64,000 nt of DNA from Phycisphaerae bacterium (GCA_029260015.1 JAJDEB010000009.1:1-64000), one strand, 5' to 3'. Counted from the first letter of the stretch, positions 33,212-45,936 are shown. The notes: a model not told the origin generated them from the sequence alone. Translations and numbers: made by a program.

Positions 33212-33442
33212 CTGAGCGACGCTCCAATCTCTGCGTAAATACGAATAACAGTCTTGCTGGACACAAGCGTATTCGCTCAGTCCAAACCAGGCAATGAACG
33301 CTCCAACGCCCGGAATCGTTACCCCAAGCACACCGAATGAAAAGTTCTTAATCCCGTACTCACGGAGAATTCATGGCGCATCGGGATTCTATCCGAGATT
33401 GTGTCGCCGGTCACAAGATGCGTCCGGCTTCGGAGAATGGGT

Positions 33443-34648
33443 ATGAACTCAGCCAGTCATTGGATTTCAGTCAAGCGGTTGTGGATCATAAGCTTGGTTG
33501 CGCTTGTTGGAATTTGTGCCAATGCGGCGCGAAGTGCGGAACCGATCGGCGTGGTTGTTCCAACCACAGCCTCCTCAGCAATCCTCGCAGATGACAACGG
33601 CGCGATATCAGAAGTATTGCTCCACTTTTCCGAAGACGAGGGCTTCGGAATTCGCGAGGTCTTAAGCGAACTCCTGACAAAATTGAATCCGCACACGAGC
33701 GTCGTCATTGCATGCCCCAATCGCAGCACCGTCGACGTCTTTGAAGCGGAATTGGGAGCCAAGGCACGACACGGTGGGCGTCATGTTCGCGTGTTCAATG
33801 TCGGTATGGACATTTCGATCTGGGCACGAGATCGTTGCATCGCCCGGCAGAATCCTGACGGATCGCAGGGTTGCCTGTTGGTGCCCAGACCGCTACCCAC
33901 GTTTGATCTCTGGCGATTAAACGAACTCTACACACCGTTCGCCCTTGAGTCTGTCGGTGCATTCCCAGATGCACGGGCTGTTTCGGTGATCATTGAAGGC
34001 GGCAACATCGTCAGCAACACCAAGTTCGCCTTTGTTGGCGCAAACGTCTTTGAAGAAAACGAAGATGCGTTTGGCAATCCCAACGGTTCCGCGCGACTGA
34101 TGCGCGACTTGCGAAAGCTGGCCGGCAAGGAAATCATCATCGTGGGCAGTGAACTCGGCGAGGTTCCGTGGAATCATGTCGATATGTATCTGACTCCCGT
34201 TGCGGAAAAGACCGTGTTGCTGGCCGACCCTGCGCTTGCCGCGCAAATCATGGGCGTTGATTCATTCGACTTTTCAGTCGCTGACGAAGAGGAAGAGCAG
34301 TTCACGTCGCCGGTCGATACGAACTTTATTTTCGCGCAGATTGCCCAACGATTGCGACAATCCGGTTTTGTGGTCATAAGCATTCCGGCAGTTTTGAACC
34401 CAGCCGAGCAATGGATGATGACCTACAACAACGTTCTGATCGACGAGCGCGAAGGCAAGCGCACCGTTTATCTGCCAACTTACGGAGTTGACGCGTTGGA
34501 TGCATACGCCCAGGGCGTCTATGAACAAATTGGATTTCACGTCGAGACCGTGAATGTGTCGGGAATCTTTGAATCCGGTGGCGCTCTTCGCTGTGTGACC
34601 AACGTCACCCATCGCGACTACAAGAAAATCAATTCAGCTGTGCATTGA
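33443..34648 (+). CDS. Exported guanidino-group-modifying enzyme (agmatine/peptidylarginine deiminase-like) family protein
   Basis: Signal peptide MNSASHWISVKRLWIISLVALVGICANAARSAE; motifs IWARDR, IIEGGNIV, WNHVDMYLTPV and C-terminal ESGGALRCVTN match the Asp/His/Asp/Cys layout of the GME superfamily. Confidence 0.7.
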   Translation: MNSASHWISVKRLWIISLVALVGICANAARSAEPIGVVVPTTASSAILADDNGAISEVLLHFSEDEGFGIREVLSELLTKLNPHTSVVIACPNRSTVDVFEAELGAKARHGGRHVRVFNVGMDISIWARDRCIARQNPDGSQGCLLVPRPLPTFDLWRLNELYTPFALESVGAFPDARAVSVIIEGGNIVSNTKFAFVGANVFEENEDAFGNPNGSARLMRDLRKLAGKEIIIVGSELGEVPWNHVDMYLTPVAEKTVLLADPALAAQIMGVDSFDFSVADEEEEQFTSPVDTNFIFAQIAQRLRQSGFVVISIPAVLNPAEQWMMTYNNVLIDEREGKRTVYLPTYGVDALDAYAQGVYEQIGFHVETVNVSGIFESGGALRCVTNVTHRDYKKINSAVH

Positions 34649-34728: not shown

Positions 34729-35811
34729 TTATCGTGGATGAAAACTCGAACCGGGGCGGAGTTTACGACAGAACTCAACAAGCAAATCGGTTGCTCGATC
34801 GACATCTTTGAGGTCCACCGTTTCTACCGCCGTGTGCATATAGCGACAGGGTATGCCCACAATTCCGATCGCAATTCCTGCCCGTGATATCTGCAACGCG
34901 TCTGCATCCGAGGGGCTGCACTCTGGTTGGGCTTCTGGTTGGACGGGAATTTTTTTTGCCCGTGCGGCGCTACGTAGCAATTCGCCGACCCGCGCGTTCG
35001 CATTGGCCCCGACAACGATGCTTGGCCCATGGCCCAATGAGACTTCTCCCGCAGTCCTTCGATCGACATCTGGAACGTCAACAGCATCGGTGACATCGAC
35101 ACAGATCGCGACGTCGGGTTTGATTGCATAAGCCGCGGTCATAGCACCACGCGATCCGATTTCTTCCTGCACCGTGCTGACTGCAAAAATCGCGCAGTTG
35201 GGACGTTGGCGACTCAGCTTGCGCGCCGCTTCCGTGATGACGGCGATGCCGGCTTTGTTGTCCAGACCGGGGCCAGTCAGCAAGCGATCGCCGAGCATTT
35301 CCGCACCCAGCGCAAAGGTAACAGTGTCTCCGATGGCCAGTTTTCGCATGGCGTCACTGCGACTCTTTGCCCCGATGTCGATCGCCAGATCACGAAAGGC
35401 CAGATCACGAAAGGAAGATTTTGAATCCTTTTGGGTTGGCCCGCGTAAACGTTCCGGACAATGTCCGATCACACCTGACGTCGCGCCCTTTCGGGTATGG
35501 ACAGAAACTCTTGACCCAGGCAGTAACGCCGGGTCTAATCCTCCAATGGCCCGCGCAAAAGCGAACCCCTGCTCGTCGACGTGGGTGACCATAAGCCCGA
35601 TCTGATCGACATGTGCAGCGAGCATGACCCGCGGCTTGCCGTCGGGGTTGATGGCGCAAATCAAGTTGCCATGTATGTCCGCATCAATCGTGTCTGCCTT
35701 CTCAGCCATGCGCGTTCGGACAACGCGCTGTGCCGGTTGCTCGAATCCCGACGGAGATGGCGTGTTCAACAGCTTCTCAAGAAATCGCAGATGATCCGGT
35801 CGCATGAACAT
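34729..35811 (-). CDS. M42-family metallopeptidase (aminopeptidase/endoglucanase-like)
   Basis: PSPSGFEQPAQRVV; VMLAAHVDQIGLMVTHVDEQGF; GPGLDNKAGIAVITEAA; VSTVQEEIGSRGAMTAAYAI; GIPCRYMHTAVETVDLKDVD. Confidence 0.93.
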   Translation of the reverse strand: MFMRPDHLRFLEKLLNTPSPSGFEQPAQRVVRTRMAEKADTIDADIHGNLICAINPDGKPRVMLAAHVDQIGLMVTHVDEQGFAFARAIGGLDPALLPGSRVSVHTRKGATSGVIGHCPERLRGPTQKDSKSSFRDLAFRDLAIDIGAKSRSDAMRKLAIGDTVTFALGAEMLGDRLLTGPGLDNKAGIAVITEAARKLSRQRPNCAIFAVSTVQEEIGSRGAMTAAYAIKPDVAICVDVTDAVDVPDVDRRTAGEVSLGHGPSIVVGANANARVGELLRSAARAKKIPVQPEAQPECSPSDADALQISRAGIAIGIVGIPCRYMHTAVETVDLKDVDRATDLLVEFCRKLRPGSSFHPR

Positions 35812-36039: not shown

Positions 36040-37161
36040 ATGAATACTGAGTTTTCTTCCGAAACAAGCGAAGCGCAACCTCAAAAAAACACGTCAGAGT
36101 CGCTGCTGGATGGTGCGACTTCCGATGAGTTCCAACTGCCCGCTGAGCTTAAAGACCAGCGCCGTGTAGCCGCCGACAAGAATCGCACGATTGACGAGCG
36201 TCTGGAAGCCTTTGAAGACGTCATGGATTCAGAGGTTGGGGATACGTCGTTTGCCCGGGCTCGAAACATTGAACGGGCGGAAGGCATTCGTCAGTTGTAT
36301 TTGAAATTTGAAGGCGGAAATCCCACCGGTACGCAGAAAGACCGAATCGCCTTTGCACAGGCGCACGACGCAATGCGCCGTGGTTTCGATGCGATCACGG
36401 TTGCAACTTGTGGCAATTATGGCGCAGCCCTCTCAATCGCGGCGCGCATCGCCGGGTTGCGCTGCATCATCTACATTCCGGAAAGCTACCAAAGTCGGCG
36501 AATTGAGGAGATGACCCAACAAGGTGCCGAGATTCTACGGGCCCCCGGTGACTATGAAGATGTCGTTGACTTGTCGCGCCAGCGGTCTGTTGATGACGAG
36601 ATCTACGACGCAAATCCTGGCGGTGCCAATACGGCATTGCAGTTGCAGGCCTACGGTGAAATCGCCCACGAGATTTATGACGAATTACGCGACGCACCGG
36701 CAGCCGTCGCCGTTCCAGTGTCCAATGGAACTACACTCGCTGGCATTTACAAAGGCTTTTTAAGTTTGTACCGGCGCGGCAAGACATCGCGCATGCCCCG
36801 ATTTATCGCGGGGTCTACCTATAACAAAAACCCGATCGTGCATGCCTTGATTCGCAATTTGCCGACGTGCGACAACCTGCCACGCGAGCGCGTCCGGGAA
36901 TCGAAAATCAACGAACCGCTGATCAACTGGCATGCGATTGACGGCGAACACGCGGTGCAAGCTGTCCGGGAGTCCAATGGGCACGCTGCTTTTGCCAGTG
37001 ACCGCGCCATGCTATCCAGTGCAAAATCGCTACGCGAAAAAGAGGGCTTGAGTGTGCTGCCCGCCTCGACGGCTGGCCTCATCGCACTGATTGATCTGTG
37101 CCGCCGAGAATCAATGCCGCCCGACCGGTATGTAGCCGTACTGACAGGTAAACGAACATGA
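36040..37161 (+). CDS. Fold-type II PLP-dependent enzyme (threonine synthase-like)
   Basis: LYLKFEGGNPTGTQKDRIA (PLP lysine context), VATCGNYGAALSIAARIAG, VPVSNGTTLAGIYKGF, LPASTAGLIAL. Confidence 0.88.
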   Translation: MNTEFSSETSEAQPQKNTSESLLDGATSDEFQLPAELKDQRRVAADKNRTIDERLEAFEDVMDSEVGDTSFARARNIERAEGIRQLYLKFEGGNPTGTQKDRIAFAQAHDAMRRGFDAITVATCGNYGAALSIAARIAGLRCIIYIPESYQSRRIEEMTQQGAEILRAPGDYEDVVDLSRQRSVDDEIYDANPGGANTALQLQAYGEIAHEIYDELRDAPAAVAVPVSNGTTLAGIYKGFLSLYRRGKTSRMPRFIAGSTYNKNPIVHALIRNLPTCDNLPRERVRESKINEPLINWHAIDGEHAVQAVRESNGHAAFASDRAMLSSAKSLREKEGLSVLPASTAGLIALIDLCRRESMPPDRYVAVLTGKRT

Positions 37162-38267
37162 GTCATTCATTCGACGGAAACGCGATCGTTTACTGCGAGG
37201 GCGCATTTACGACGCCCAACGGGAAAACGGCGCACGGACTGGTTCGACACACGGATCGATACCGCGTCATCAATGTGGTGGATTCGGTGCATGCCGGAAA
37301 TGACGCGGGGCAGCTTCTTGATCGGCGGCCCAACGATATCCCCGTGGTCGATTCGATTGCAACTGCAATCACGGATGCCAAGAAGGCGAACAAACCAGCT
37401 ACGCACCTGGTCATCGGATTGGCTCCTGATGGCGGGCGGTTGTCGTTATTTGCTCGCGACGACGTCAAAGTGGCGATTCGATCCGGACTGCATGTAGACA
37501 GCGGGCTTCACGATCTCTTGAGCGAAGACACCGAGATTGCAGAGCTTGCCCGAGAGTTTGGCGTGCAACTTCGAGATGTGCGCAAACCGCCACCGCTCTC
37601 GCAATTGCACTTCTTCTCAGGAAAAATCGAAGACGTCACCAGCTTCAAGGTGGCGGTGCTTGGTACGGACTCTGCCATCGGAAAACGCACGACAGCCGTC
37701 CTGCTCGTCAAAGCGCTTCGTGAACAAGGGTTGACCGCGGAGTTGATCGGGACCGGGCAAACCTCCTGGATGCAGGGCGTGCGTTACGGAATCGTCCTCG
37801 ATTCGCTCATCAATGACTTTGTCGCGGGTGAAATTGAGCACGCCGTTTGGAGCGCCTGGTCAGAACAGAAACCCGACGTCATCATCCTTGAAGGACAAGG
37901 GAGCTTGCTCAACCCCGCGTATCCAGGTGGGTTCGAGTTGTTAGCCGCCGGTAGACCGGACGCAGTCGTTATGCAGCACGCACCCGCGCGCGACGTTTAT
38001 GATGGTTTTCCGAATCATCCGATGCACCCGCTAGAACGACAGATTCAAGCGATCGAAGTTGTTTCTGATCGCCCGGTTGTCGCAGTCACGTTGAACCACG
38101 AGTTGCTCGATCAGGATGCGATCGAACAGTCGAAGCGCGATGTCGCAGGTGAAACCGGTCTGCCCGTCTTTGATGTACTGCTCGAAGGGGCGGCTGGCTT
38201 GGCTGAAGTCATCGCACAGCGTATTGCAAGTAGAGAGTGTGTCGCGAGAGAAAGTGTGAATCGATGA
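37158..38267 (+). CDS. DUF1611 family P-loop protein (DgcN-like)
   Basis: VAVLGTDSAIGKRTTAVLLVKALREQGLTAELIGTGQTSWMQG and VIILEGQGSLLNPAYPGGFELLAAGRPDAVVMQHAP. ATGA overlap with the previous gene. Confidence 0.88.
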   Translation: MSHSFDGNAIVYCEGAFTTPNGKTAHGLVRHTDRYRVINVVDSVHAGNDAGQLLDRRPNDIPVVDSIATAITDAKKANKPATHLVIGLAPDGGRLSLFARDDVKVAIRSGLHVDSGLHDLLSEDTEIAELAREFGVQLRDVRKPPPLSQLHFFSGKIEDVTSFKVAVLGTDSAIGKRTTAVLLVKALREQGLTAELIGTGQTSWMQGVRYGIVLDSLINDFVAGEIEHAVWSAWSEQKPDVIILEGQGSLLNPAYPGGFELLAAGRPDAVVMQHAPARDVYDGFPNHPMHPLERQIQAIEVVSDRPVVAVTLNHELLDQDAIEQSKRDVAGETGLPVFDVLLEGAAGLAEVIAQRIASRECVARESVNR

Positions 38268-40687
38268 ATCGCCGTGCAAACTCAAGAGCTGGCGATATCC
38301 ATCCAACCGGAAAAACGTCCAAGAAAAACCCGCTCGATTGCCTCTTCGTCATAGATCGACTCACAGTCGGTCCGGCGCGGATTGAATCGCGCCGCATCTG
38401 CGTGCCATACGAAGTGTCACAAGGCGGCACAACCGAGACCTTTGAACTCATCTTTCGTTATACAGCAGATGTGTTCTCGCCAGATGACATCGCTGACCAG
38501 AATCTCGCCGCGATGATCGGCTGCCAGGTAGCGCTGAACTACGGGCTGTTCGCGCGCGAAATCGTTTTTCGCGGCATATTCGACCAGCACGATCAGCGGT
38601 TTATTGCAAGCATGGCCGAAAACACGGCACGCGAAATCTACGTCAACAAGCTTTTGAAACCGAATTCATTTCTCGTTGGCGATGCCACCCACCTACCCGT
38701 CGTCAAACTGTCCCATTATTGCCAGGCTCGACTGGTCTTTGACGCTGCTGATGGCACCGCCGAGAAGGATCTCAAAGCCCGTCAATCCGAATGGACTTAC
38801 AGTGCAAATCGCTTCCTCGTTCTGTCGAGCGGCGGGAAGGACAGCCTGCTCACGTTCGGACTGCTGCGCGAAGCAAAGGCGGAAGTTCATCCGGTCTTCG
38901 TCAACGAATCGGGGCGACATTGGTTCACAGCGCTCAATGCATACCGGTATTTTGATGAGCATATTCCCAATACCGATCGGGTTTGGACCAATGCCGATCG
39001 ACTCTTTGCATGGATGCTGCGCAAGCTTCCCATCGTTCGGCAGGATTTCGCGAACGTCCGATCGGACGCCTACCCGATTCGCTTATGGACGGTGGCGGTG
39101 TTTGTATTCGGAACGTTGCCGATTGCCCGCAAATGCGGCGCTTGCCAGATCATCATCGGTGACGAATACGACACGACTGAGAAAACTACCCACGAAGGGA
39201 TTACGCACTACAACGGATTGTACGATCAAAGTCGCTACTTCGACGACGCCCTCTGTCGGTATTACGCACGAAAGCGCTGGGGGCTCACCCAATTTTCGAT
39301 TCTGCGGCCGATGTCTGAGTTGCTGATTGAGAAGACGTTGGCCCAGCGCTATCCGAATCTATTGGCACTCCAGACTTCGTGTCATGCAACGCACAAAGAA
39401 GGCGAAACGATTCGACCTTGCGGAAAATGCGAAAAGTGCCGCCGCATCATGACCATGTTAGCCGCCATCGATGTTGATCCAAAAGTCTGTGGCTATTCGC
39501 AAGAACAGTTAGTAAAAAGCCTCGCGGAATTTGCCCGCGCAGAACTACATCAGGAACTGGCTGGCGTACAGCAACTCGGGCATTTGCTTCGGTCACGTGG
39601 GTTGATTCAGGCTGACAAAATCGATGGAGCGTCGGTGAAAGAACGCAAGGAGATCATGCAACTACGCTTTGATCGCGAGCGCTCACCGATTGGTGCGATT
39701 CCGGCCAAGCTGCGTGCGAAGATTTACCCATTGATGCTCGCCCATACCGAAGGTGCAGTAGAGAAGCAGGGCCGCATGTGGTCTGCTTTCGACCCACTGG
39801 CCACCAACGCCATGTCCCAACCGTATCCATTTGAACAACCGGAGCGTGAATTGAAATCTGCCAACAAGAAGTCTGCAAACAAGAAATCTGCGGGCAACGC
39901 GACAGACAAATGGCTATGGGGCGAGTTCACTTGGCCCCAGGCGGAAGCACAACTTCGCAGTGTTGATGTCGCGCTTCTTCCGGTTGGGGCGATCGAGCAG
40001 CATGGCCACCACCTTCCCCTCGATACCGATGCGTTTGACGCGGATCACCTGGCGCAAGAAGTCGCTCGTGCGTGCGCAACGCCTCGGCCATTCGTCTTGC
40101 CGTTGATCCCTTATGGCGTGTCGTACCATCACGACGATTTTCGCGGTACAATCAGCGTCACCAACGAAACGCTTTCTCGATTGGTTTACGAAATTGGCAT
40201 GAGCGTGGCGCGCAATGGCATCACCAAACTGGTCATCATCAATGGTCATGGGGGCAATGCCGCGACGCTCCAGTTCGCAGCCCAGATGATCAACCGCGAC
40301 GCCCACATCTTCACATGCGTTGACACCGGAGAAACCAGCGACACCGACATCGACGAGCACACCGAGACACGCAGCGATCTGCATGCAGGTGAGGTCGAGA
40401 CGAGTACTTCGCTCGCGACTCGGCCACACCTGGTTCAGATGAACAAAGCAAAGAAATGCATCTCCAAATTCTCGAGTCGATACCTGGATTTCAGTTCGCA
40501 ACGGAGTGTCGACTGGTACGCCCGGACTGCGAAAATTTCCTCCAGCGGTGTCATGGGCGATCCAACGAAGGCCACCGTTGAAAAGGGCCATCGCATTTGG
40601 GAAATCATGATCAGTAACCTTGTGGGGCTCGTCGAACATCTCAAGCAGATGACGCTCGACGAAATTCATCAACGAAACCGCTTCTAG
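38264..40687 (+). CDS. Two-domain fusion: PP-loop ATPase (MurL-like?) with Cys4-type knuckle, plus C-terminal creatininase-family amidohydrolase
   Basis: N-terminal FLVLSSGGKDSLLTFGLL (PP-loop) and RPCGKCEKCRRIM; Lys/Ala/Asn linker; C-terminal VALLPVGAIEQHGHHLPLDTDAFDADHLAQEVA and VIINGHGGNAATLQFAAQ (creatininase metal-binding motifs). ATGA overlap with the DUF1611 gene. Confidence 0.85.
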   Translation: MNRRANSRAGDIHPTGKTSKKNPLDCLFVIDRLTVGPARIESRRICVPYEVSQGGTTETFELIFRYTADVFSPDDIADQNLAAMIGCQVALNYGLFAREIVFRGIFDQHDQRFIASMAENTAREIYVNKLLKPNSFLVGDATHLPVVKLSHYCQARLVFDAADGTAEKDLKARQSEWTYSANRFLVLSSGGKDSLLTFGLLREAKAEVHPVFVNESGRHWFTALNAYRYFDEHIPNTDRVWTNADRLFAWMLRKLPIVRQDFANVRSDAYPIRLWTVAVFVFGTLPIARKCGACQIIIGDEYDTTEKTTHEGITHYNGLYDQSRYFDDALCRYYARKRWGLTQFSILRPMSELLIEKTLAQRYPNLLALQTSCHATHKEGETIRPCGKCEKCRRIMTMLAAIDVDPKVCGYSQEQLVKSLAEFARAELHQELAGVQQLGHLLRSRGLIQADKIDGASVKERKEIMQLRFDRERSPIGAIPAKLRAKIYPLMLAHTEGAVEKQGRMWSAFDPLATNAMSQPYPFEQPERELKSANKKSANKKSAGNATDKWLWGEFTWPQAEAQLRSVDVALLPVGAIEQHGHHLPLDTDAFDADHLAQEVARACATPRPFVLPLIPYGVSYHHDDFRGTISVTNETLSRLVYEIGMSVARNGITKLVIINGHGGNAATLQFAAQMINRDAHIFTCVDTGETSDTDIDEHTETRSDLHAGEVETSTSLATRPHLVQMNKAKKCISKFSSRYLDFSSQRSVDWYARTAKISSSGVMGDPTKATVEKGHRIWEIMISNLVGLVEHLKQMTLDEIHQRNRF

Positions 40688-40696
40688 GCAACGATC

Positions 40697-41758
40697 ATGA
40701 ATATCACGAAGATTGAATGCTGGTCGGTGAGCATGCGACTGGCAGAAAGTTACGAGATCGCGTACGAGAAAGTCACTTCGACGACCAATGTGTTTCTGCG
40801 AATCGAGACGCATAACGGCATCTGTGGTTTTGGTTGCGCCGCACCGGACGAGCCAATCACCGGAGAAACAGCGGAATCAGTCCGCGGCGATCTGGAAGGC
40901 GTGGTTGAACCGTTGCTAAAGAGTCTTGATGCTTCGCGTTACGCGTGGCTGATGGATCAAGTTGTCGAAGCATTGCCCAATAGCCCCGCAACAAGGGCGG
41001 CCGTTGATATGGCATTGTTTGATGTGCTGGGAAAAGCCACCGGTTTGTCCGTCTACCAACTATTGGGCGGTTATCGCACTTCGATCCCTACAAGCATCAC
41101 AATCGGTCTGATGCCATTTGAAGATGCCGTCGAGCACGCCGTACGCCATGTAAGTCGAGGCTTTCAATGTCTGAAGATCAAGGGCGGTCTCGACGTGAAT
41201 GAAGACATTGAACGCGTGCATGCCGTGCGCGATCGAGTCGGCCCGGCGATCGAACTGCGATTCGACGCGAACCAGGGTTACACCGTTGAACAGGCTCGAC
41301 ATTTTGTTGAACGGACCAAGACAGCGAAGCTCGAACTGCTGGAGCAACCGACACCGCGTGGAGCGCCCGACCTGCTCGGCCGCGTCACTCAATCCGTTGC
41401 CCTGCCTGTGATGGCCGACGAGAGTCTGATGTCCCTGCGCGATGCATTTCGGCTGGCAAGTGAAGGACTCGCCGACATGGTCAACGTCAAACTCATGAAA
41501 GTGGGTGGAATCCTCGAAGCCTTGCAGGTCAATGCCGTCGCCAAGTCTGCAAAGCTGGAGGTGATGGTCGGCTGCATGGATGAAGCCGGGCTCGCCATCG
41601 CCGCCGGACTGCACTATGCCCTCGCGCGGAAAAACGTCGTTTATGCCGACCTCGACGGTCATTTTGATTTGATCGATGATCCGTCACACGCGGCACTGCG
41701 TCTCAAGGATGGCATTCTCTATCCTGCCGAAGGCCCCGGATTCGGTTGGTCGATCTAG
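40697..41758 (+). CDS. Enolase-superfamily enzyme, dipeptide epimerase/DgcA-like (muconate-lactonizing subgroup)
   Basis: GCAAPDEPITGETAESV; CLKIKGG (KxK); ELRFDANQGY; LLEQPTPRG; PVMADESLMS; VNVKLMKVGGI; MVGCMDEAG. Confidence 0.92.
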   Translation: MNITKIECWSVSMRLAESYEIAYEKVTSTTNVFLRIETHNGICGFGCAAPDEPITGETAESVRGDLEGVVEPLLKSLDASRYAWLMDQVVEALPNSPATRAAVDMALFDVLGKATGLSVYQLLGGYRTSIPTSITIGLMPFEDAVEHAVRHVSRGFQCLKIKGGLDVNEDIERVHAVRDRVGPAIELRFDANQGYTVEQARHFVERTKTAKLELLEQPTPRGAPDLLGRVTQSVALPVMADESLMSLRDAFRLASEGLADMVNVKLMKVGGILEALQVNAVAKSAKLEVMVGCMDEAGLAIAAGLHYALARKNVVYADLDGHFDLIDDPSHAALRLKDGILYPAEGPGFGWSI

Positions 41759-41828: not shown

Positions 41829-44612
41829 TCATTCAAACGGGTCGCTCACTTCAACTCGAAGCTCACTGCAATTTTCTAGCGACGCATGTTCAAACGAAAC
41901 TTCGTTGGCATGAATCTCGCGTTGCATCTGCTTTCCAGCTTCGTCTAGCACGCGAATGGTTCTCGTTGGTACGTCGCAGCGCGCAACACTCACACTAAGG
42001 ATCATGCGTCGTAGTTTGCAACGAAACGAGATGCGGTTGAATGGATACGCATTGGCAGGGCAAATCTTCAGGCCCGTAAGTGTCGGCTGGATCCCGACGA
42101 CATGGCGTGCCAGAATCTTCAATAGCACATTGGAACTGCCTGTCTGCCAGTCGTTCATGCTTTGCCCATCGAGACCAAGCTCGACATTCTGGGCGTACGA
42201 ATTTGGCATGACGAAGGGCGAATGTGAAAGATTTTCACTCTTCTGGAGAAACGGCAAGACTTTGGCCAACTGCGCCCAGGCACGATCGGGTTCATTCATG
42301 GCGAACATCGCAGCCACGCCGAACAATGTGGAATGGACATACGTCGCGCCGTTCTCTGCGGTACCAATGGGCAATTTTCGAATGCGCCCGACACCGCGTG
42401 CATCGGATCGAAAACCCGGCTCGAACGTTTTGAGTCCGTAGGGAGAATCCAACCTTGAAAATGCGGCGAGGATATCCTCATCCGAAATTCCGCGTGGCGC
42501 TTCATCTCTCATTCCACTAAGGACCCAAAAAGCGTACGACGTTAAGCCGTCTCGCGCCTCGCCATCAACGTCTTTGAAACTCCCGACGTAATACTCGCGC
42601 CCATCACCCCAGCCGTGAACGATCCTTGAATGTCCGCCCTCTGAAACGAGCGCATGCAATTCGAGCGCTTTGCGAACACTCTCTTTGAGTTTTTGATATT
42701 CGGTGATTTCGTTGGCGAATCGGGATGCGTCAAGCGCCGCGTACACTTCGGCCATCTCTCGGCAGTTTTGGAAGAATTGCAGACTGGCCATCACGGAAAC
42801 ACCAGACCCAAACCCTTCCGCACCGTCGCTTCGCACGCCTAATCCGTCGAGCGCATCGTTCCAGTCGCCATAAAGGGCCCGGACCAAACCGGTTTCCAGG
42901 TCGCGTTGTCGATGGAGATAACCGCAAATGCGCTCCATGTGATTGAGAACCGTATCGGTTTCATCAGATAGCGCAATGGTTCCGGCGATCGGGTCAACGA
43001 TCTCATGGTACCCGACGATTTCGTTGAGAAGTGCAAGGTCGCCTGTCGTCGCCAGGTATGTGTAAATCGTTGAAATCACCCACACGCCCTGATCCACGAA
43101 CTCGCGTAGGTCGGCTTTGGTGATGTCGCCATCGATTGCAAGGGAGTATTGCCGTGGGCAGCGACCGTCACTCAAGACATGGGCCAAGCACTCCAGAATT
43201 CTTGCCCGCGCCATTGCAGGATCTTCGATCAGGATCGCTTCAACTGCTTGCATGACGTCGCGAACACCGATCAGCGAATTGGGCGACGCGTGCATGTAAC
43301 CTTCGGTTGATGCACACACTTCGATCTGCCTACGCAAATACGGAATGAATTGATTGATCGCATCGGTTTTGATGGGCGTCGTCTGATTTGAATCTTCAAA
43401 TGACAGCGAGATGCGTTCGCTCTTTTGTTGGCACGCATTGCGAATGCGAGAAAGTCGATGGTCGACACTCCAGGGAGACAGCGGATCGCAGACGGATTTC
43501 TCGAAGTCGTCAAACAGTTGATGATGACATAGTTCGTAATCGAATCTCGCGACGGCTCGCGGTGCGAGTGAAAATGACTGCAAGTCACCGGTGATTGCCG
43601 TATCGTGAAACACAGTCAGTTCGGGCTGACTTGAAAATAGACCATTCTGCAAGAACGATGCCGTACTCAAATTCCGAACCACTGAACCGTTATACGCACC
43701 GAGTGATGTGGCGACTTGCTGCTGCGGTGATTGAGCAACCTCCGAACCATTTGATTCGCAAACGATCACATGCCGACGTAACAGCCCTTGGTGCGTCACT
43801 GAACCGAATCGATTCTGGTCTTCATTGACCTCGAGCACAAAAGGTCGCAAATGCCCGTGCCGATCGCCGACCGCATCTGCAACGTCCGTACTATTTTGTG
43901 CGAGGTAAGTTTTCTTAAACCATCGGTCTTCATGGGTTTCGTGGAACTGATGTCGAAAGTGGGGATTGAAGAATGATGAAACGTACAACTCGGCTGGTGC
44001 ATCGCTCTTGTTCTCAACGAAGATCGACCACACCATCGCCGTGTTTCCCAGTGAATCGCTGTCCAGGAAGAATCGAACGCCTCCTCGGATCGATGGCGTC
44101 TCCGTGAAATACCAAACGCCATCGTGACCGATGACCGTATAACGTGAAAGTCCGTCGGAGTTTTCGCCCGCAAGCGATGGTACCGGCAGGAGCGAAAACG
44201 GTTCAAACGAATCGGAGTTGGAACTGCGCTGCCCCGCAACAAACGAAACGCATGGATCTTGGCCGGTCACTGGCGGCAGGAAGTAGAAGAACAGGCCCCG
44301 ATTGCCGTAGAATCGACCGGATGCGGTCGCCCAAAGGTGCGTTCCTTTGTCACCATATGGATATCGACTATCACCGTAAGCGCGCGGACCGCAATACACG
44401 CGACCATCGGGAATGAACATCGTATTGCCGGCAAGAATGCGCGGACGATTCTCTTCGGATTCATCAATCTGCGTGCGAACCTGCGAATCGATCTTTGCGA
44501 ACTCGTCGCGCAGCGAACTTGCACTACTACCGGATTGCAGCTTGTGATTTGTAGATTTGGTATCGCCAACTCGGATTGGCGTCTCTACTACTGAGTCGTC
44601 TGAATTCGCCAT
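41829..44612 (-). CDS. GH94-type (cellobiose phosphorylase-like) protein
   Basis: PDGRVYCGPRAYGDSRYPYGDKGTHLWATASGRFYGNRGLFFYFLPPVTGQDPCVSF; catalytic-region YGDWNDALDGLG; GSSNVLLKILARHVVGIQPTLTGLKICP. Confidence 0.85.
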   Translation of the reverse strand: MANSDDSVVETPIRVGDTKSTNHKLQSGSSASSLRDEFAKIDSQVRTQIDESEENRPRILAGNTMFIPDGRVYCGPRAYGDSRYPYGDKGTHLWATASGRFYGNRGLFFYFLPPVTGQDPCVSFVAGQRSSNSDSFEPFSLLPVPSLAGENSDGLSRYTVIGHDGVWYFTETPSIRGGVRFFLDSDSLGNTAMVWSIFVENKSDAPAELYVSSFFNPHFRHQFHETHEDRWFKKTYLAQNSTDVADAVGDRHGHLRPFVLEVNEDQNRFGSVTHQGLLRRHVIVCESNGSEVAQSPQQQVATSLGAYNGSVVRNLSTASFLQNGLFSSQPELTVFHDTAITGDLQSFSLAPRAVARFDYELCHHQLFDDFEKSVCDPLSPWSVDHRLSRIRNACQQKSERISLSFEDSNQTTPIKTDAINQFIPYLRRQIEVCASTEGYMHASPNSLIGVRDVMQAVEAILIEDPAMARARILECLAHVLSDGRCPRQYSLAIDGDITKADLREFVDQGVWVISTIYTYLATTGDLALLNEIVGYHEIVDPIAGTIALSDETDTVLNHMERICGYLHRQRDLETGLVRALYGDWNDALDGLGVRSDGAEGFGSGVSVMASLQFFQNCREMAEVYAALDASRFANEITEYQKLKESVRKALELHALVSEGGHSRIVHGWGDGREYYVGSFKDVDGEARDGLTSYAFWVLSGMRDEAPRGISDEDILAAFSRLDSPYGLKTFEPGFRSDARGVGRIRKLPIGTAENGATYVHSTLFGVAAMFAMNEPDRAWAQLAKVLPFLQKSENLSHSPFVMPNSYAQNVELGLDGQSMNDWQTGSSNVLLKILARHVVGIQPTLTGLKICPANAYPFNRISFRCKLRRMILSVSVARCDVPTRTIRVLDEAGKQMQREIHANEVSFEHASLENCSELRVEVSDPFE

Positions 44613-44753
44613 GCTTCTCTTCGCATCTTGTGATTGAAAAGTAGTCAGCCGCACTCACTCACGCCGCTAACTCCTTGTAGAATAAAACGTTCCCAATCAA
44701 GGTGCCTGTCACATGTGTAGTTTCAAACAGGCATCCCGTCCAAGGAAACGAAT

Positions 44754-44808
44754 TTAATTAACTTTCTTTATAATAACGTTCTTGAAATGTTTAATCCACT
44801 TAATTAAG
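44754..44808. promoter_or_regulatory. AT-rich divergent regulatory region with two TTAATTAA palindromes
   Basis: TTAATTAA at 44754-44761 and CTTAATTAAG at 44799-44808, between the GH94 gene and the ROK regulator; centres about 46 bp apart. Confidence 0.35.
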
Positions 44809-44817
44809 ATTGTTTTT

Positions 44818-45936
44818 ATGAGCATCTCACTGACTGGAAAACCGCAACTTAACCGCGAAGTCAATCGTCGAATCATATTGGCTAGGATCCGGCGCGAAGG
44901 GGAAGTGTCCCGTGCTGACCTTGCCAAAATCACCGAGATTCGCCCCCCCACTATCTCCGCAGTCATGCGCGATCTGGTGGACGAAGGCCTCGTTGAAGAA
45001 CGTGGGGCAGGTGCCACCAACGGTGGTCGGGCGCCTCTTTTGTTTGCGATCCGAGGAAGTATTCCAAGGGCACTCGGTTTCGAGATCAACGAGTCAAGAA
45101 TCCTAGCCGCCCTGTGCGACCTGCATGGCGAGACGTGTCAACAAATCGCTGTTGATTTTAATCCTTGCTCGCCTGAAGAAACGATCGAAACGTTGACCAG
45201 ACTTCGCGACGAACTGCTGTCTGACGCGAAAATATCGTGGGCAACAGTTCTTGGCGTCGGTATCGCGATGCCCGGTTTGATTCGCGGTGAAGAAGGCCTG
45301 GTGCGATTGTCCAAACCCTTCGATTGGCACGAAGTATCTTTTCGAGCGATGTGCGAGAAGGCATGGAATCGCAAAACGTACGTCGTCAACGACTCACTAG
45401 CAGGCGGGATGGCCGCCCATTTCTTGGGTGGAGCGGGCGGCGTCCGTAATCTTGTTTACCTCAATATACGATACCTCAATGCATCGCATGGCGTCCTCGG
45501 ATTGGGATGTGGCATTGTCCTTGAAGGCGAGCCATTTCACGGGGAGTTCGGCGCAGCCGGCGAGATCACCACGCCGATCGCACACCCGATCAAACATTTG
45601 AATTCATCGCAAGCGGTGTCTCACTTCGTCGATCGGGTCGCCAAAGGCGATCGTGAATCCGTGATGGCACTTCAAGCTTCATCCGACGAAATCGCAAAAC
45701 TGGCGGTCCATGTCATCAACTTCCTCGAACCGGGGATGTTGATTTTGGGAATTGATGAGCCTCGACTCGTGCAACCGGTGCTGACGCGCATTCGATCGCG
45801 CGTGCGCGAAGCAGGTTTGGCGGAAACCACCGATCATACGCGGGTCGTCGCCGCAGATCTCGGCGAATTTGGATTGGTGCGCGGTGCAGTGGTTCCGGCA
45901 CTACAAGATGTATTTCGATTACCGCGTTGGTCATAG
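44818..45936 (+). CDS. ROK-family transcriptional regulator
   Basis: N-terminal HTH (NRRIILARIRREGEVSRADLAKITEIRPPTISAVMRDLVDEGLVEE) and ROK domain (GVGIAMPGLIRGEEG, VVNDSLAGGMA, GLGCGIVLEGEPFHGEFGAAGEI). Confidence 0.92.
   Translation: MSISLTGKPQLNREVNRRIILARIRREGEVSRADLAKITEIRPPTISAVMRDLVDEGLVEERGAGATNGGRAPLLFAIRGSIPRALGFEINESRILAALCDLHGETCQQIAVDFNPCSPEETIETLTRLRDELLSDAKISWATVLGVGIAMPGLIRGEEGLVRLSKPFDWHEVSFRAMCEKAWNRKTYVVNDSLAGGMAAHFLGGAGGVRNLVYLNIRYLNASHGVLGLGCGIVLEGEPFHGEFGAAGEITTPIAHPIKHLNSSQAVSHFVDRVAKGDRESVMALQASSDEIAKLAVHVINFLEPGMLILGIDEPRLVQPVLTRIRSRVREAGLAETTDHTRVVAADLGEFGLVRGAVVPALQDVFRLPRWS

Follow-up and report, generated by a model that had tools for sequence, protein, structure and literature searches.

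A PP-loop/creatininase fusion protein

The window analyzed here, a 64,000-nucleotide stretch of DNA from a Phycisphaerae bacterium (GCA_029260015.1 JAJDEB010000009.1:1-64000), encodes a fusion of a PP-loop (pyrophosphate-binding loop) ATPase to a creatininase-family amidohydrolase. The fusion gene (38264-40687, plus strand; gene 3) lies within a set of genes that recurs in other bacteria and is referred to below as the cassette. An earlier note on this DNA, made by reading the sequence alone, had proposed a single-polypeptide fusion at these positions, and the fusion is real: a single open frame of 807 codons runs from ATG to stop and encodes 807 amino acids, with its 5' end overlapping the stop of the upstream DUF1611 gene by 4 bases (38264-38267). 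Judged from motifs and profiles, the N-terminal half is a PP-loop domain with a four-Cys zinc motif and the C-terminal half is an intact MftE-type creatininase.

The protein begins with a family-specific extension of beta strands and helices (38321-38788, residues 20-175; defined by alignment and model), followed by an ATPase core of the QueC/MurL type (38801-39469, residues about 180-402; hhalign to MurL, query residues 179-402, and Foldseek). The pyrophosphate-binding loop SGGKDS, which the note had placed correctly at 38828-38845, comprises residues S189-S194; S189, G190, G191, K192 and S194 are invariant among 43 aligned cassette-family members, and D193 is present in 40 of them. E301 (codon at 39164-39166) is invariant in both the cassette family and MurL but not in QueC, and the motif SILRPMSEL (39296-39322, residues 345-353) is likewise common to MurL (SLLRPLSEL) and not QueC. 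The zinc-type motif S372-C373...C386-G-K-C389-E-K-C392-R393 (39377-39442) was assigned by Cys conservation, as its four Cys are invariant in the 43 cassette-family members, 5 MurL and 10 QueC sequences. The note had recognized the CGKCEKC portion (residues 386-392, 39419-39439), although it ended the motif one residue too late, at 39442, and missed the fourth Cys upstream, C373 (39380-39382). No Pfam family scores above its cut-off in the N-terminal 528 residues, and a sequence search of solved structures with the PP-loop half returned nothing significant.

A linker with a KSANKKSANKKSAGN repeat (39848-39910), variable among relatives and of low predicted local distance difference test score (pLDDT; <50 at residues 542-545 in the AlphaFold2 model), leads into the creatininase domain (39923-40630, residues 554-789). 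This domain is complete, as the note had stated, with a match to Pfam Creatininase PF02633 at E = 7.6e-69 (232 bits vs. a cut-off of 31.3) and a Foldseek match to creatininase 1q3k at 3.4e-14. EQHG, HLPxDxD, NGHGGN and HAGExETS (HAGEVETS in the window protein) are conserved in the family (68 aligned rows), so that the metal-binding motifs are kept. By sequence, this half is nearer MftE than creatininase proper, with 153.7 bits against the MftE model TIGR03964, below the cut-off of 172. It resembles the MftE/creatininase family over the whole domain and in all four motifs; it differs from MftE in being joined to a PP-loop domain and in that mycofactocin genes are absent from the conserved neighbors of cassette loci. 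AlphaFold2 gives the whole protein a pLDDT of 90.5 and a predicted template modeling score (pTM) of 0.72, and the N-terminal part alone values of 91.2 and 0.91, with predicted disorder confined to the first 18 residues and the surroundings of the linker.

Affinities of the PP-loop half

Only one family, MurL of NCBIfam, has a model that matches almost every member (40/43, best 2.3e-8), although the window protein matches it over residues 292-408 only, with 32.1 bits vs. a cut-off of 700, which falls short of a full-length match. A profile of the cassette family aligned to MurL proteins with E = 6e-12 over 200 columns (local repeats gave 2.6e-12 and 7.8e-13), while ten QueC proteins in the identical test gave 1.4e-4. 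The MurL profile is thin, consisting of five sequences: the MurL of Xanthomonas sacchari, which is annotated and followed by murD; two planctomycete MurLs that match the NCBIfam model over their length (478-494 bits), one of them adjoining a MurD-like protein; and two Pseudonocardia homologues. GGxDS and SC...CxxC..C are common to the cassette family, MurL and QueC, and nine positions are common to the cassette family and MurL alone (K192, E301, S345, L347, R348, S351, E352, K391 and R393). The note had anticipated that a strong match to QueC, with none to MurL, would speak against a MurL link; by sequence, MurL instead out-matches QueC. The link holds for the core (6e-12 vs. 1.4e-4 for QueC) and not for the feature that had suggested it, a helical segment before the PP-loop thought to be MurL-like. 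Profile comparison of the N-terminal domain with that of MurL gave no match (E = 0.061, probability 0.9%; a distant homology below detection is possible), and because the two N-terminal domains lack profile similarity the helices are no evidence for MurL.

A Foldseek search of the core against the PDB returned QatC as the best match (7.3e-6), followed by QueC (2.3e-4) and Cap9 (2.1e-3), with TM scores (target) of 0.67-0.71 against QueC that place it in the QueC-superfamily fold. The listed PDB matches include no MurL entry, and MurL and QueC are therefore inseparable by structure. Taken together, sequence comparison indicates that the PP-loop half is a QueC-superfamily ATPase nearer to MurL than to QueC, an assignment that applies to the core (residues about 152-402).

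The cassette core is homologous to MurL and shares with it GGKDS, E301, SxLRPxSEL and SC...CxxCxKC, but the fusion protein has another N-terminal domain, a C-terminal creatininase and no murD neighbor. It has the fold and both hallmark motifs of QueC (PF06508), SGGxDS and SC-x(n)-CxxCxxC; it differs in its score (14.7 bits vs. the Pfam cut-off of 22), in the spacing of the first and second Cys (12 vs. 8 in QueC) and in the large additional N-terminal domain. The anti-phage QueC-like proteins QatC and Cap9 provide the best PDB Foldseek matches, and QatC also carries N- and C-terminal extensions (PMC13279940), but the cassette has metabolic genes in place of QatABD or CBASS (cyclic-oligonucleotide-based anti-phage signaling system) neighbors. 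An anti-phage role was rejected, given no QatC-type neighbors, an insignificant PADLOC match (E = 0.022) and no phage or plasmid matches. A 458-amino acid PP-loop protein encoded elsewhere (G141:C18, 1222-2598, minus strand; L080), with SFGKDS and SC...CxxCxxC, is a relative of the cassette family (E = 1.4e-17), has no match to the MurL model and falls below the QueC cut-off.

Fused and free-standing forms

Scanning of genome contigs recovered 74 relative loci of the PP-loop half, at 44-60% identity. Both parts could be followed in 71 of these, with the PP-loop and creatininase in one frame in 45 and in separate neighboring genes, an arrangement the note had suggested looking for, in 26; they are adjacent at every locus where both could be seen. 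A frameshift or assembly error as the origin of the fusion, which the note had raised against its own proposal, is ruled out by recurrence of the single frame in 45/71 loci. Chance does not explain these features, because the PP-loop half has 74 relatives, the loop residues S189, G190, G191, K192 and S194 and all four Cys are invariant, and the fusion shows this same recurrence.

A 43-member tree requires at least 3 changes in the fused state and has fused members to either side of its midpoint. The principal free-standing group forms a branch centered on Bacteroidota, in which single members from Calditrichota, Ignavibacteriota and the desulfobacteria are also found. This suggests loss of the fusion in the Bacteroidota-centred branch plus horizontal spread, with the rooting of the tree uncertain. 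The distribution of the cassette is sporadic, spanning at least 8 phyla (Planctomycetota, Bacteroidota, Acidobacteriota, desulfobacteria and others) and including cultured marine strains of Robiginitalea, Draconibacterium, Lutibacter and Desulfosarcina. The cassette occurs in 4/30 genomes of the window's own family, and 297 genomes sampled across the phylum gave two clear cassette proteins, one of them the window's own; absences are bounded by genome completeness, and some loci stop at contig edges.

The five-gene cassette

Searching the window neighbors against the other loci yielded a recurrent gene order: a threonine-synthase-like pyridoxal phosphate (PLP) enzyme, a DUF1611 protein, the PP-loop domain, the creatininase and an enolase-superfamily epimerase. 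All five functions occur together in 41 of the 51 loci with enough flank, and no further gene family is recurrent around the cassette loci. In the window, genes 1 and 2 and genes 2 and 3 overlap by 4 bases each, resembling a translationally coupled operon.

Gene 1 (36040-37161, plus strand) encodes a predicted fold-type II PLP enzyme with the invariant Lys of NP.GtqKDR, and scores 416 bits against NCBIfam NF004996 ('threonine synthase'; cut-off 266) and 4.6e-51 against Pfam PALP. The threonine-synthase-like gene is kept upstream in most loci and has the motif ATCGNYG or ASCGNYG wherever read. Since 11/12 cassette genomes have a canonical thrC elsewhere, gene 1 is probably dedicated to the cassette, and housekeeping threonine synthesis is an unlikely role. 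Selenocysteine was considered for the Desulfosarcina gene, which has one TGA; this was taken as the stop codon, with none internal within the aligned gene. Gene 2 (37158-38267, plus strand) encodes a DUF1611 protein with the P-loop GTDSA.GKRT (Pfam DUF1611_C, 1.3e-63; DUF1611_N, 1.6e-23). It appears by sequence to be DgcN-like rather than DgcN itself, as it scores 154 bits against DgcN NF041892, for which the cut-off is 480.

Gene 4 (40697-41758, plus strand) encodes the enolase-superfamily, dipeptide-epimerase-like protein that the note had linked to a stereochemistry theme, and its place in the locus is conserved. Against the NCBIfam model for L-Ala-D/L-Glu epimerase (Thermotoga type) it scores 223 bits, with a cut-off of 500. 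Among solved chains it is closest to 3rit 'Dipeptide epimerase' (5e-64), and the K.K lysines, ADES, DLD and GC.DE are all conserved across 55 aligned rows, the two lysines and the DxD being features of dipeptide epimerases. The 3rit enzyme acts on cationic dipeptides. In the 'IAFR/IAYE' stretch the cassette epimerase has an invariant Glu where 3rit has Arg, and we take this Arg to be the Glu-binding Arg of L-Ala-D/L-Glu epimerase; its replacement makes it likely that the substrate is not L-Ala-Glu. The cassette resembles the DgcN-DgcA D-glutamate pathway (functions from PMC12363236 and NCBIfam names) in having DUF1611 and an enolase-superfamily racemase/epimerase in one locus, but the cassette proteins are far under the cut-offs (DgcN, 154 of 480; DgcA, 174 of 400) and the cassette adds three enzymes. 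At two loci (L001 and L008), pieces absent from the locus were found elsewhere in the genome.

An M42-family aminopeptidase (34729-35811, minus strand) and a PAD/agmatine-deiminase-like gene (33401-34648, plus strand) adjoin the cassette in the window; they are not conserved neighbors at other loci, save for a PAD homologue in L008. Directly downstream lie a GH94-type glycoside phosphorylase (41829-44654, minus strand) and, divergently oriented, a ROK-family regulator (44782-45936, plus strand), which together are probably a separate carbohydrate unit.

Relationship to cell-wall MurL

Homology to MurL raises the possibility that the cassette is an alternative source of cell-wall D-glutamate, with true MurL function. 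The window genome is consistent with this in that neither MurI nor a second MurL was found in it, and a few other cassette genomes also lack MurI; however, MurI is above cut-off in 11/16 cassette genomes. A genome of the window's genus (G330, 97% complete) has neither MurI nor the cassette, as is the case for many of its class mates, and in another genome (G089) the cassette coexists with a MurL that has a MurD-like gene beside it. The fusion protein is not the cell-wall MurL, because most tested cassette genomes have MurI, G089 has both systems and no murD is adjacent in the cassettes. A D-glutamate supply for the cell wall is accordingly most improbable and was rejected on the MurI distribution and the genome carrying both systems.

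Several related observations were made. Of the genomes sampled from the window's class, MurI was not detected in ~40%, many of them >95% complete (G000, G330, G347 and G362 among them). Full-length Planctomycetota MurL homologues (478-494 bits) are encoded at G089:C69, 13154-14482 (L082, L084), where the L082 homologue adjoins a MurD-like gene, and at G125:C1, 1459115-1460422 (L081, L085); a 2021 review confines its listing of MurD2/MurL to some members of the Gammaproteobacteria, Alphaproteobacteria and actinobacteria. MurL homologues on Pseudonocardia mobilizable plasmids (L090, 2468-3862; L091, 2468-3877) are annotated as hypothetical, have no murD alongside and are possibly not cell-wall MurL.

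Possible functions of the fusion

MurL uses one ATP and yields AMP, with adenylation of the alpha-carboxylate thought to precede epimerization and hydrolysis (PMC8788868; PMC5808125). QueC uses ATP to activate a carboxylate for attack by ammonia, and in Cap9 the attacking group is instead an N-terminal protein amine (PMC13279940). Given the shared ancestry and the intactness of the motifs, our best guess for the PP-loop half is adenylation of a carboxylate, and the dipeptide epimerase and DUF1611 neighbors suggest that the substrate would be a peptide or N-acyl amino acid. We consider the chances about even that the fusion is a bifunctional enzyme, an adenylating PP-loop half plus a creatininase amidohydrolase, in a pathway dedicated to an amino acid or dipeptide. 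We observed the domain architecture, the homology, the intactness of the motifs and the conservation of the cassette; adenylation, the substrate class and the order of steps that follows are inferred. The PP-loop half would use ATP, with release of AMP and pyrophosphate, to adenylate a carboxylate of an N-acylated amino acid or of a dipeptide. From there, either the adenylate would undergo epimerization and hydrolysis, the route suggested for MurL, or an amine or ammonia would attack it, the route of QueC and Cap9. In the same intermediate or the one that follows, the metal-dependent creatininase half would hydrolyze a C-N bond, with fusion or gene adjacency channeling that intermediate. The threonine-synthase-like PLP enzyme, DUF1611 and dipeptide epimerase would place both activities in one pathway involving stereochemistry. 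For the adenylate, amide formation is tentatively our first choice, with MurL-like epimerization nearly as likely and some other fate rather doubtful. The coupling of adenylation/epimerization to amide hydrolysis in one polypeptide, as the note had put it, is a plausible proposal.

Some results weigh against a bifunctional enzyme in such a pathway. The QueC substrate is not transferable, since the fusion protein shows no clear sign of the substrate motifs of QueC. The domain-to-domain arrangement is moderately supported in the AlphaFold2 model (pTM 0.72). Two loci (L027 and L045), and probably a third (L051), keep the threonine-synthase-like, PP-loop and creatininase genes without the cassette-type DUF1611 and epimerase, and any paralogues of these two in their genomes are more distant; the epimerase is therefore not strictly needed, and DUF1611 and the epimerase may form a sub-module beside the other three genes.

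The fusion could also be one of convenience, joining two independent pathway enzymes whose domains are not chemically coupled. The free-standing domains in 26/71 loci and the disordered linker favor this, and it is a serious possibility, if short of an even chance, given that the pair is adjacent wherever both are visible and that fused forms occur widely among phyla. Alternatively, the PP-loop half might be an ATP-driven, one-way epimerase of a peptide's C-terminal residue, with the creatininase half then cutting the peptide. MurL as the closest family by sequence, the nine MurL-not-QueC positions (including E301 and S345-x-L-R-x-x-S-E) and the second, enolase-type epimerase within the cassette are consistent with this, but that same enzyme, being reversible, lessens the need for another; the N-terminal domain is unlike that of MurL, and the MurL residues that abstract the proton are unknown, so that shared residues are not readable as epimerase residues. 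We regard such an epimerase as somewhat unlikely.

In a further model, an amide donor would be split by the creatininase half, and the PP-loop half would join the freed ammonia or amine to an adenylated carboxylate. PP-loop synthetases joined to amide-hydrolyzing domains are an established design, as in GMP synthetase, where the glutaminase is fused or neighboring (PMC13329287). The cassette shows a likewise fused-or-neighboring relation, and QueC and Cap9 form amides. However, we know of no creatininase-family enzyme that acts as an ammonia donor, and the flexible linker and modest pTM would speak against a fixed channel, leaving this model improbable. A fuller version, in which the protein would be the founding example of a class of coupled enzyme, its creatininase-type metallo-amidohydrolase feeding ammonia, an amine or a freed carboxylate to the MurL/QueC-type adenylating domain, and the cassette would make or degrade an undescribed amino-acid amide or D-residue dipeptide in many uncultured bacteria, is more improbable still.

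Implications

No published description of the cassette, or of the PP-loop/creatininase combination, was found in the open-access literature, and a 2026 survey of the QueC family mentions neither MurL nor creatininase (PMC13329287). The fused subfamily of the QueC/MurL kind is new and belongs to an undescribed pathway, whose mechanism we infer. MurL has been described as lacking known domains and as having an unclear mechanism (PMC8788868, PMC5808125); the present comparison groups MurL and the cassette family as PP-loop, zinc-motif proteins next to QueC, a placement that explains AMP formation and offers concrete targets for mutation (K192, E301, S345, R348, S351 and E352). As for the cassette, its five genes form a conserved, self-contained set of sporadic distribution, whose probable role is the processing of a compound of the amino-acid or dipeptide kind and which is testable in cultured marine strains.

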